A stretch of DNA of 64,000 bases, from assembly GCA_009777245.1 (NCBI GenBank), contig WRMF01000002.1, forward strand, positions 1 through 64,000, read 5' to 3'. Origin of the DNA: Betaproteobacteria bacterium (lineage in GTDB: Bacteria > Pseudomonadota > Gammaproteobacteria > Burkholderiales > Rhodocyclaceae). How positions within the stretch are numbered: the first letter of the stretch is position 1; every line of letters begins with the position of its first letter. A model generated the notes under the pieces. The model was not told the origin of the DNA, ran no database searches, and worked only from the letters and a program-made list of their open reading frames with translations. Shown here one piece after another: positions 4,787 to 58,803 of this stretch. The position numbers and the translations under genes were made by a program.

Positions 4787-4810
4787 TTTGCGTCGACATC
4801 GTCTTTGACC

Positions 4811-4929
4811 ACGTGTCTCGCGCAAGCATCGCCATTTATGGCGGTGTGAGCGAGACAGTTGTTTTGTGGAGCATTTAGCTCCCCTCATCTGTGGCGAGGA
4901 AGCCCCAACCTTCAGGTTGGGGTGACTCA
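4811..4929 (+). repeat. Three-hairpin dispersed repeat, copy A
   Basis: First of five copies of a roughly 120 bp element. It has hairpin 1 around CGCCATTTATGGCG, hairpin 2 around GGAGCATTTAGCTCC, and hairpin 3 CCCCAACC-TTCA-GGTTGGGG, and it ends GACTCA. Hairpin 3 differs from the other copies by paired changes (AA/TT instead of GG/CC). Its last three bases (4927-4929) form the stop codon of cysE read on the minus strand. It separates cysE from the iscR promoter. Confidence 0.85.
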
Positions 4930-5610
4930 CTCCTCGTCTTCCGCCTGGATGCCTTGTTCCTGCAGGCGTTTCTGTAGTGTTTCCAGACGGCGGTCTGTTT
5001 CCGCCGCGTGATCTAAAAGGGTGTGCAGGGTGATCATCAGTGGATCGTTCTGGTCGCTGCTTACCGCATAGGCGGAAAAATCGGGGCGCGCGGCGTCTGT
5101 TTCTTCCAGAAGCCGCGCCGGAATGCCCAGGGCGGTGACGCCGGAAGGCACGTCTTTTGTGACAACCGAATTAGAGCCGATTCGCGCGCCTTTGCCGATG
5201 GTAATCGGCCCCAGCACTTTTGCGCCCGCGCCGACCACTACTTTGTCTTCAAGGGTTGGATGCCGCTTGCCTTGTTGCCAGGAAACGCCGCCCAGAGTGA
5301 CGCCGTGGTAGAGCGTTACATCGTCGCCGATTACTGTTGTTGCGCCGATGACTACGCCCATACCGTGATCAATGAAAAAGCGGCGTCCTATGCTTGCCGC
5401 CGGATGAATTTCAATGCCGGTTATGGCGCGGCCAATGTGCGCGGTCATGCGCGCGAGCCAGAACAGCCGCCAGCTCCAGAGCCTATGCGACAGGCGATGG
5501 ACGAGGAGCGCATGTACGCCGGGATAGCAGGTCAGCACTTCCCAGAAAGAACGCGCCGCCGGATCACGGGCAAAAATTGAAGCGATGTCTTCGCGCAACT
5601 GCCGAAACAT
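4927..5610 (-). CDS. cysE: Serine O-acetyltransferase
   Basis: CysE makes O-acetylserine, the precursor of cysteine, and so supplies the substrate for the desulfurases next door. It has 227 residues from the ATG at 5610 ([20 protein letters not shown]). A left-handed beta-helix hexapeptide domain includes [17 protein letters not shown] and LYHGVTLGG, with catalytic histidines, followed by GIPARLL. A longer in-frame ORF upstream to 5763 is not CysE-like. Its stop codon is supplied by the end of repeat copy A, so the C-terminal residues (QAEDEE) may reflect the insertion point. Confidence 0.94.
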
Positions 5611-7916: not shown

Positions 7917-8483
7917 ATGATAAAGCCTTATAAGCTCTTCGGCATCTTTTTTTTGTTGTTCTTTCTTGCCTTGCCCTTCTGGACGAATCGCGCGAATGCT
8001 GAACCTCTATTTCAGGACGCGACAGACCTGTTCGAGCGTTATTCAAATGCCGTGCAGGACGTTTTGTTGACGGGGCTTTCCGCAGTCGGTGCCCGTTATC
8101 GTCCGGGCGGCACAGAGCCGGATGGCGGTCTGGATTGCAGCGGTTTCGTGCAGTTTGTCTATCGCGAGGCTGCCGGTCTGGTTCTGCCTCGCACGGCCAA
8201 AGCCCAGTCGCAACAGGGCAAGGCGGTTGATCGGGCTGACCTGAAGCCGGGCGATCTCGTTTTTTTCAATACGATGCGCCGCGCCTTCTCCCATGTCGGC
8301 ATTTATCTTGGCGACAGTTATTTTATCCATGCGCCAAGTTCCGGCGGCACGGTGCGTCTGGAAAGCATGTTGAACCGCTACTGGCAGGGGCGCTATAACG
8401 GGGCGCGTCGCTTGCTACAGACGGAAAATGACGTGGCGGCTTTCTCCGATTCAGGCATGACCGCCGATTCGGACGGAACTTGA
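7917..8483 (+). CDS. NlpC/P60 family peptidoglycan endopeptidase, secreted
   Basis: A 188-residue protein with a hydrophobic N-terminal signal sequence (to about ANAEP at residue 29) and an NlpC/P60 cysteine peptidase domain. The catalytic cysteine is in GGLDCSGFVQFVYR, the histidine in FSHVGIYLG, and a third polar residue in FIHAPSSGG. It is related to Spr/MepS-type enzymes that cut peptide cross-links in murein. It is divergently oriented to the GGDEF gene. Substrate specificity cannot be read from sequence. Confidence 0.92.
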   Translation: MIKPYKLFGIFFLLFFLALPFWTNRANAEPLFQDATDLFERYSNAVQDVLLTGLSAVGARYRPGGTEPDGGLDCSGFVQFVYREAAGLVLPRTAKAQSQQGKAVDRADLKPGDLVFFNTMRRAFSHVGIYLGDSYFIHAPSSGGTVRLESMLNRYWQGRYNGARRLLQTENDVAAFSDSGMTADSDGT

Positions 8484-8484
8484 C

Positions 8485-8526
8485 CATGCGTCTCGAATAA
8501 GCCCCAACCTTGAGGCGACTCGCAAC
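8485..8526 (+). repeat. Truncated remnant of the three-hairpin repeat
   Basis: The stretch GCGTCTCGAATAAGCCCC and the following AACCTTGAGGCGACTCGCAA resemble the 3' end of repeat copy A (AAGCCCCAACCTTCAGG then GACTCA). The right arm of hairpin 3 is missing. It lies between the NlpC/P60 and aat genes. Confidence 0.45.
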
Positions 8527-37322: not shown

Positions 37323-37367
37323 AAAGGAAAATTGGGATTATAAGGCATGGAACAGGTAAGTCAACAT

Positions 37368-37492
37368 TGAGTCGCCCCTGCCTGAAGGCAGGGGATTCCT
37401 CGATACGGTCTTGGGGAGCCTTCGGCTCCCTGTTACGCTTTGTCTCGCTTCTATCCGCCATAAATGGCGGATAGAAGCGAGACCCGTATTCA
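37368..37492 (-). repeat. Three-hairpin dispersed repeat, copy B
   Basis: Read on the minus strand: a long first hairpin (TCTCGCTTCTATCCGCC with its mirror GGCGGATAGAAGCGAGA), hairpin 2 GGGAGCC-GAA-GGCTCCC, and hairpin 3 CCCCTGCC-TTCA-GGCAGGGG, ending CGACTCA. Position 5 of hairpin 3 is a T-A pair, where copy E has G-C and copy A has A-T. It lies about 45 bp upstream of the tRNA-Val gene's 5' end. Confidence 0.8.
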
Positions 37493-44942: not shown

Positions 44943-45066
44943 TTGAACATGCGTCGAGCACAATCCTCGCCATTTATGGCGAGGCGAGCAAGACAGTTGC
45001 TTTTGGAGCCGAGGGCTTCTCTAACCTGTGTCGAGGAATCCCCGGCCTTTAGGCTGGGGTGACTCA
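44943..45066 (+). repeat. Three-hairpin dispersed repeat, copy C (in fabI leader)
   Basis: TTGAACATGCGTCGAGC, hairpin 1 CCTCGCC-ATTTAT-GGCGAGG, hairpin 2 GGAGCC/GGGCTTC (imperfect) and hairpin 3 CCCCGGCC-TTTA-GGCTGGGG, ending GACTCA. It stops 18 bp before the fabI ATG, so it must be transcribed in any fabI mRNA that starts upstream. Confidence 0.85.
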
Positions 45067-45084
45067 AGTCAATGGGAGTAAAGA

Positions 45085-45882: not shown

Positions 45883-46261
45883 GACATTTTCGGCTTATCC
45901 TCATCACACCCAAAAGATGTGAAACCGATTGCCTCCAGATTGCTCAACCGAGGGGCGATCGGTTTGGGCAACAAGTTGACAGGAGAGCAATATATAGTGG
46001 TTCCTGCAAATAAAGCTACCAAACCCCGGCAGCTTCGCCGCTAGTGGGCAAGCTTTTTGGACTTGCGCAGAGCGCAAAAGGGTGTTTTGTGTCGTGCCAG
46101 GAGTCAGACAATGCTCCCTTTTTAAAGGATGATAACTTGTTGCGCCAAGGGTTTGCTGTTACCGCGCCAAAGCATGAACCTGCTTTCAAACCATAAATAG
46201 CCCGACAGAAACGCTTTTGCCTCGCCCGCGTGAGTGTTTACTTCTCGCCTTACCGCATCAT
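45883..46261. other. Intergenic region after fabI, no gene seen
   Basis: Part of a 618-bp gap. It holds TTCCTGCAAATAAAGC and CTTCGCCGCTAGTGGGC (45990-46060), also found in decayed form at 6410-6500 (opposite strand). A GC-poor middle section is followed by repeat copy D. No start-codon/RBS pair with a plausible ORF was found. Confidence 0.4.
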
Positions 46262-46386
46262 TGAGTCACCCCTGCCTTTAGGCCGGGGATTCCTCGACAC
46301 AGGTTAGAGAGTCTCAATACTCCATAAAACAACTGTCTCGCTCACCTCGCCATGAATGGCAAGGATTGCGTTCGACGCGTGTTCAA
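46262..46386 (-). repeat. Three-hairpin dispersed repeat, copy D
   Basis: On the minus strand: TTGAACACGCGTCGAACGC, hairpin 1 CCTTGCC-ATTCAT-GGCGAGG, a degenerate hairpin 2 (GGAGTATTGAGACTC) and hairpin 3 CCCCGGCC-TAAA-GGCAGGGG (one mismatch), ending GACTCA. It lies about 115 bp upstream of the MFS gene, pointing away from it. Confidence 0.85.
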
Positions 46387-51687: not shown

Positions 51688-52077
51688 TTACCGCAAATAA
51701 AAATCATGCGCTACCTACAAACCCCCGCCTGCCAAAAACGGGCACCCCCTTTGGCTTCGCCGCTGTAGGGGCTAAAAATTTTTAACCCATGCGCCGCAAG
51801 AAGGAGAGGGAAAGCCTTGCCCCCACTCCAAATCATTAGTCATTCCCGCGAAGGCGGTAATCCAGAAAAGCCTTTCCGTTAATTTGATGTTCGATGTGGG
51901 ATGTCGCTCCTGTCCTGTTCTGGAAAATTATCGTGCTTGCCAACGCCGCGCTGGATTCACACCTTTGCGTTAATTTCGAGTGGTTTGATGTCTGTGCGAA
52001 AGAAGAACTGCGCCCTGTAGTCGTTTTATCTATGTGAATCACTATAGGCCAGAAAGAATCGGACTAACTCAGATAAA
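51688..52077. other. Intergenic region between RM gene and pseudopilin gene
   Basis: A 390-bp gap between convergent genes. It contains a partial GGCTTCGCCGCT repeat near 51753, a GGAGAGGG stretch near 51804, and the MITE-like element at 51839-51969. No gene is supported. Confidence 0.5.
51839..51969. repeat. MITE-like element, copy 1 (ATTCCC terminal repeats)
   Basis: The left end GTCATTCCCGCGAAGGCGG plus TAATCCAG and the right end CTGGATTCACACCTTTGCG form degraded terminal inverted repeats. The core 51900-51926 (GATGTCGCTCCTGTCCTG...) is the reverse complement of 58646-58673 in the second copy. The terminal motif resembles the neisserial dRS3-type ATTCCC-N8-GGGAAT repeat. Confidence 0.75.
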
Positions 52078-58435: not shown

Positions 58436-58559
58436 TTGAACACGCGTCGAGCGCAATCCTCGAAATGAATGGCGAGGTGAGCGAGACAGTTGTTTTATGG
58501 AGCCGAAGGCTCTCTGACTTGTACCGAGGAATCCCCGGCCTTCAGGCCGGGGTGACTCA
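58436..58559 (+). repeat. Three-hairpin dispersed repeat, copy E
   Basis: The best-formed copy. TTGAACACGCGTCGAGCGC, hairpin 1 around TCGAAATGAATGGCGA, hairpin 2 GGAGCC-GAA-GGCTCT, and hairpin 3 CCCCGGCC-TTCA-GGCCGGGG (8 bp, perfect), ending GACTCAA. It lies between the secretin gene and the ATPase gene and may separate their transcripts. Confidence 0.88.
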
Positions 58560-58594
58560 AACGCGTTCATTCTGTGTGCCTTTAATGCCCACTT

Positions 58595-58735
58595 GTCATT
58601 CCAGCGTAGGCGGTAATCCAGTACGGCGCTGAAAGTCACGGCAGATTTCCAGAACAGGACAAGAGCGATATTCCCATGCGGAAACACCATAGGAATGCAA
58701 AGTCTGTTCTGGATTCCCGCCTTCGCGGGAATGAC
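58595..58735. repeat. MITE-like element, copy 2
   Basis: A 141-bp element bounded by GTCATTCCAGCGTAGGCGG plus TAATCCAG and CTGGATTCCCGCCTTCGCGG plus GAATGAC, terminal inverted repeats of about 26 bp. The right end contains ATTCCC-N8-GGGAAT. The core (58646-58673, TTTCCAGAACAGGACAAGAG) matches the first copy in inverted orientation. It lies within the 388-bp gap between secretin and ATPase genes. Confidence 0.8.
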
Positions 58736-58803
58736 GATTAAATTACTGCCTGTGCATGAATGACTGGGTCGCATACGCTGGAATCCAGAAAGCCGAAATA
58801 ATT

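Follow-up and report, generated by a model that had tools for sequence, protein, structure and literature searches.

The five-copy repeat in the window, the stretch of 64,000 nucleotides of contig WRMF01000002.1 analysed here, is very probably a non-autonomous transposable element of the IS200/IS605 type (a PATE, or single-stranded DNA MITE). Its IS200/IS605 anatomy without the genes classes it as a PATE, a kind already known, and on sequence evidence it is a new, predicted PATE family with two target classes and a natural, coordinated change of target. The first-pass annotation had proposed a non-autonomous, single-strand-transposed element of this type, and the proposal is well supported by the guide/cleavage-site code, by borders seen at empty sites and by full-length relatives with matching ends. 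All five copies that it listed are present in the window, scoring 119-135 bits (E 5e-29 to 5e-33) with a covariance model of 38 diverse copies which by construction contains the window copies or their close kin. The coordinates given earlier locate the repeats but not their exact ends, as those of copies B to E include the target tetranucleotide and the left end of A is 1 base short. We placed the borders of the window copies from the empty sites of other copies, excluding the target, so that each element runs from the base after TGAA or TGAC through the last base of TCAA or TCAC. The features are as follows.

4810-4930, + strand: copy A, TGAC class; target TGAC at 4806-4809, guides CAAG and GAAG, end TCAC
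8480-8526, + strand: core-deleted remnant, TTGAC and left end CATGCGTCTCGAATAAGCC fused to right end CCAACCTTGAGGCGACTCGC; assigned by eye
37367-37488, - strand: copy B, TGAA class; target TGAA at 37489-37492
44948-45067, + strand: copy C, TGAA class
46261-46381, - strand: copy D, TGAA class; target TTGAA at 46382-46386
58436-58440, + strand: flank TTGAA of copy E, its last four bases TGAA being the left cleavage and target site C_L
58441-58560, + strand: copy E proper, 120 bp from CACG (after TGAA) to TCAA; 134.8 bits with model R1
58454-58457, + strand: left guide G_L of copy E, CAAT, adjoining the left hairpin on its 5' side; pairing with TGAA follows the IS608 code (PMC5934647)
58458-58477, + strand: left hairpin of copy E (helix 3); two-sided changes at five pairs
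58499-58514, + strand: middle hairpin of copy E (helix 4); 94.7% paired
58529-58532, + strand: right guide G_R of copy E, GAAT, directly 5' of the right hairpin; identical to IS608 G_R
58533-58552, + strand: right hairpin of copy E (helix 6); 94.4% paired, with the covarying fifth pair
58557-58560, + strand: right cleavage site C_R of copy E, TCAA; conserved end, same as IS608 C_R

At 120-122 bp the element has no room for a transposase gene. The remnant noticed earlier near 8485-8526 reads, by eye, as a core-deleted copy of the TGAC class. A second, unrelated repeat of about 150 bp (motif GTCATTCC.GCG.AGGCGG.AATCCAG) adjoins copy E at 58580-58745 and is also found at 51830-51983, as inverted copies; about ten more copies lie in the window's own assembly (G000, 2.15 Mb, 93% complete) and several in that of a sister species (G213).

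In IS608 a guide tetranucleotide 5' of the foot of each hairpin picks the cleavage tetranucleotide of that end (G_L AAAG with C_L TTAC, G_R GAAT with C_R TCAA), guide base 1 pairing with site base 2 and guide base 2 with site base 1 (A+16:T-3 and A+17:T-4; PMC5934647). The present element likewise has a hairpin with a 5' tetranucleotide guide at each end and lies 3' of a tetranucleotide kept in the left flank; it differs from IS608 in having neither tnpA nor tnpB and in its left site, TGAA or TGAC as opposed to TTAC. Guide base 4 of IS608 pairs with site base 4, which agrees with both IS608 ends. The main class of the element (left TGAA with CAAT, right TCAA with GAAT) obeys the IS608 pairing rule at both ends. 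The second class, about one copy in five and window copy A among them, has TGAC with CAAG or GAAG on the left and TCAC with GAAG on the right, the last base of sites and guides having changed together. TGAA or TGAC stands directly 5' of nearly all copies. In a test of guide pairing the right end fits fully and the left end fits for CAAT and CAAG; most TGAC copies in G000 carry GAAG and not CAAG as left guide, its first base being unpaired with the G of TGAC.

Among 142 unique copies, the fourth bases of site and guide form A:T in 98, C:G in 27 and other combinations in 17 at the left end, and A:T in 112, C:G in 23 and others in 7 at the right end, counts that are not independent because the class changed only one to three times on the tree. 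The left site agrees with the right one in 135 of these 142 copies. For G000 alone, A:T and C:G make up 31 and 18 of 56 on the left and 37 and 16 of 56 on the right. One recombinant copy (L241:10251) joins a TGAC/G left end to a GAAT/TCAA right end, and each end is self-consistent. On the best tree, built with the code columns removed, the left site changed class three times, at least one change being forced by supported branches, and this number is far too small for a sign test. The target class thus appears to have changed only one to three times, and the covariation is mechanistically striking, not a record of many independent events. IS608 has reportedly been retargeted in the laboratory by a change of guide; here two target classes occur naturally in a single family, guides and sites having changed jointly at both ends in dozens of copies per genome, and these sequences would allow ideas on the evolution of the base-pair code in single-strand transposons to be tested.

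The left guide is lost in more than 20 copies, including copy B, whose left hairpin is one long perfect palindrome; in this group the guide is gone because the left stem has turned into such a palindrome. These hairpins (window 37367-37488, L060, L091, L109 and L123) occur in several sequence versions, and we infer that they arose by quasipalindrome correction after insertion, repeated in the family.

The fold comprises a closing stem, a long left stem with its hairpin, a middle hairpin, a GAG/CTC clamp and the right hairpin. The three hairpins in fixed order described earlier are all there, but the description lacked a fourth helix, the closing stem, in which the left end pairs with the bases leading up to the right guide. 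In the 38 diverse copies 88.6% of cells are paired over the whole structure, compared with 84.0 +/- 0.4% in shuffles and 27-40% after a shift of the partners by 1-3 columns, and two-sided changes occur at 14 pairs. Both subterminal hairpins (helices 3 and 6) show compensatory changes, and the variation first noticed at the fifth pair of the right hairpin extends through these copies (G-C 16, T-A 8, A-T 7, G-T 3, other 4). Such changes had been taken to mean that the structure is under selection or needed for movement; they fit a requirement for movement, but alone they are no proof of a cellular function. In the closing stem the final base of the target, an A or C that lies outside the element, faces an internal T or G just 5' of the right guide. 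It is conceivable, though rather unlikely, that this stem is a third, undescribed contact in left-right recognition. If so, a change of target would need five matched changes, as against two per end.

The possibility raised earlier of a full-length relative with the same ends is realized in part: left-end code, left-end sequence and right hairpin match, whereas the last spacer on the right differs. G045:C94 is a divergent tnpA/tnpB element in which a stop interrupts tnpB; it has the left end TTGAC/CCGTTGCGCGACAAGCCCCGCCGTTCAGGGCGGGG (TTGAC/CCGTTGCGCGA-CAAG-hairpin; a slash marks the element border) and right end GTAGGAATCCCCGGCCTTCAGGCCGGGGAGGATGTCAA (GAAT-CCCCGGCCTTCAGGCCGGGG-..TCAA), the right hairpin CCCCGGCCTTCAGGCCGGGG being the same as that of the short element. 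From the window's genus, G214:C5 has the left end TTTGAC/CAGGTGCGGGGCAAG and a GAAT..TCAA right end, and G214:C173 has TTTAC with AAAG, also by the code. Among relatives on viral contigs (L307-L312) some read TGAC/CAGGTGCGCGACAAG (TGAC/CAGGTGCGCGA-CAAG) and others TTAC with AAAG. On the left the short element reads TGAC/CACGTGTCTCGCGCAAG (TGAC/CACGTGTCTCGCG-CAAG), which aligns with the left ends of the G045, G214 and viral-contig elements in site, guide and hairpin. Unlike it, these relatives carry tnpA and tnpB, end on the right in AGGATGTCAA with the hairpin-to-end spacer AGGATG-TCAA as against TGAC-TCAA, and have left and right sites that need not match. Since the left ends are alignable and the code is shared, the family appears to descend from this IS605 lineage or to have adapted to it.

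Palindromes of the REP/BIME kind, which owe their spread to a domesticated TnpA_REP (RAYT), are, like the element, short, non-autonomous, palindromic single-stranded substrates of a Y1 HUH enzyme. The many, mostly intergenic copies, hairpins with 5' tetranucleotides and Y1 proteins of RAYT length in G095 and G004 (in G095 only long ones, REP-type by length) would suit such an origin. We nevertheless consider it very unlikely: the alignment has no GTAG/CGTC tetranucleotide, the architecture is another one, with two unlike ends that have defined left and right cleavage sites and match classical IS605 elements, the unit is 120 bp compared with 21-65 nt, and no Y1 protein of any kind, RAYTs included, was found in G000.

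The earlier remark that no transposase or TnpB gene lies in the window is true of the whole assembly, as a search of G000 for the Y1 transposase (PF01797) and TnpB domains found neither; a missed transposase gene is possible because the assembly is 93% complete. No homologue of the G045 TnpA was found in G213, G216, G008 or G004, and none of TnpB in G000, G213, G216, G008, G004 or G095 (the last from another family of the same order), despite about 92, 77, 8, 3, 2 and 7 covariance-model matches, respectively. The absence of TnpB from these six copy-bearing genomes speaks against the second suggestion of the first-pass annotation, a TnpB-type guide-RNA-like remnant. Under that suggestion the element, or its ancestor, would be transcribed as a trans-acting guide RNA (omega-RNA) whose 3' flank directs the TnpB nuclease; the right end does resemble the omega-RNA 3' ends of IS605 elements, and the right-end region of the G045 element itself scores 27.7 bits with the covariance model. 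We give it even less credence than a REP origin, as the conserved left hairpin and left guide match the needs of TnpA and would be superfluous for an omega-RNA.

Comparison of empty sites, put forward earlier as the way to define the exact borders, gave two clean cases and a consistent third, with no target duplication at any of the three. A TGAC-class copy in G213 (L089, ..GCATGAC/CACGGG....GACTCAC/TTATCC..) has an empty counterpart in G000 (L023, ..GCATGACTTATCC.., that is ..GCATGAC/TTATCC..; 86% identity over 300 bp). Similarly, TGAA/element/TGCC at L026 of G000 corresponds to TGAATGCC (TGAA/TGCC) at L083, within a hairpin loop. The third case concerns the place of copy C, where the element in G213 (G213:C50, L260) has identical borders but points the other way, through either an inversion or two separate insertions, and G216 (L261) is empty; here the borders fit and the target has drifted, TGAA itself being absent. 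The site of copy E in G213 was rejected as a clean empty site, E being gone along with the neighbouring repeat (383 bp reduced to about 15). The element thus inserts on the 3' side of a fixed short target, which is retained in the left flank. Since the L089 insertion is present in G213 and absent from G000, the element moved after the split of the two species, and a transposase was therefore once present, lies on a missing piece or came from outside.

These data suggest a route in which TnpA (Y1 HUH), supplied in trans, would bind the left and right hairpins of the single-stranded element while the guide adjoining each hairpin on the 5' side pairs with the cleavage site of that end: flank TGAA with CAAT or TGAC with ..AG on the left, TCAA with GAAT or TCAC with GAAG on the right. 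The enzyme would cut 3' of both sites and release a single-stranded circle, which would insert 3' of another TGAA or TGAC picked by the left guide, leaving no target duplication.

The closest parallel is with the PATEs of Haloquadratum walsbyi (PMC3119063), which are likewise too short for a transposase, have near-terminal palindromes related to IS605-type elements, make no target duplication, use the terminal oligonucleotide as target, far outnumber full elements, include core-deleted, terminal-only copies and reside in hosts with tnpA absent or broken. Assemblies with 77-92 copies and no transposase pose the same puzzle as those PATEs. The present family is bacterial (Rhodocyclales-type Betaproteobacteria) and unrelated in sequence, and it adds a third, central hairpin, the closing stem and a division into two target classes, each with guides to match at either end.

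With copy E as query, blastn gave 40 scored copies in G000. The covariance model had no match in 197 of 200 genomes sampled from the order, and searches of plasmid and phage collections for the element had none. In public genomes the exact right-end pattern occurred in 93 stretches. Almost all of these come from MAGs with Betaproteobacteria, Azoarcus, Zoogloeaceae or Accumulibacter in the title, joined by one Thiobacillus and a groundwater Rhodocyclales; we take many of the MAG names to denote termite-gut bins. Of 64 copies, 40 lie mostly outside long ORFs, compared with 10% of random positions. A GC-skew test showed no strand bias (26 of 66 copies positive with 8-kb flanks, p 0.11), the skew, mostly below 0.05, being too weak for a leading/lagging call. 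The repeat might instead be a conserved non-coding RNA or cis-regulator that multiplied because it serves the cell, its fold being selected as RNA, and the strong, covarying fold and the mostly intergenic setting would fit this. Yet the copies occur on either strand and in varied settings (36 tandem, 12 convergent, 15 divergent), close relatives lack them at orthologous sites and every Rfam family stays below threshold, which makes this the least probable reading of all.

Weaker matches in G214, G219 and the other members of the genus inspected proved to be a different repeat. This other three-hairpin family (TTAGCGACAGCCCTTCAGGGCTGTCGCTAA .. GAAACCCCGGCCTTCAGGCCGGGGTCTCAACC; L173, L184 and L195 in G214, L174 in G219, L175 in G215, L187 in G004), with which the weak model matches in G002 (51) and G214 (15) are listed, has an IS605-like right end whose guide is unfit for TCAA. 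Eight G213 loci (L064, L077, L078, L080, L084, L099, L121 and L137) carry the element as a passenger amplified with a larger repeat, with common flanks (..CACTGGAGTA / AAAACCGACTGCACTGGTGCATGG..), and at L063:69-361 copies of the element stand head to tail, one of them abutting the end of the next.
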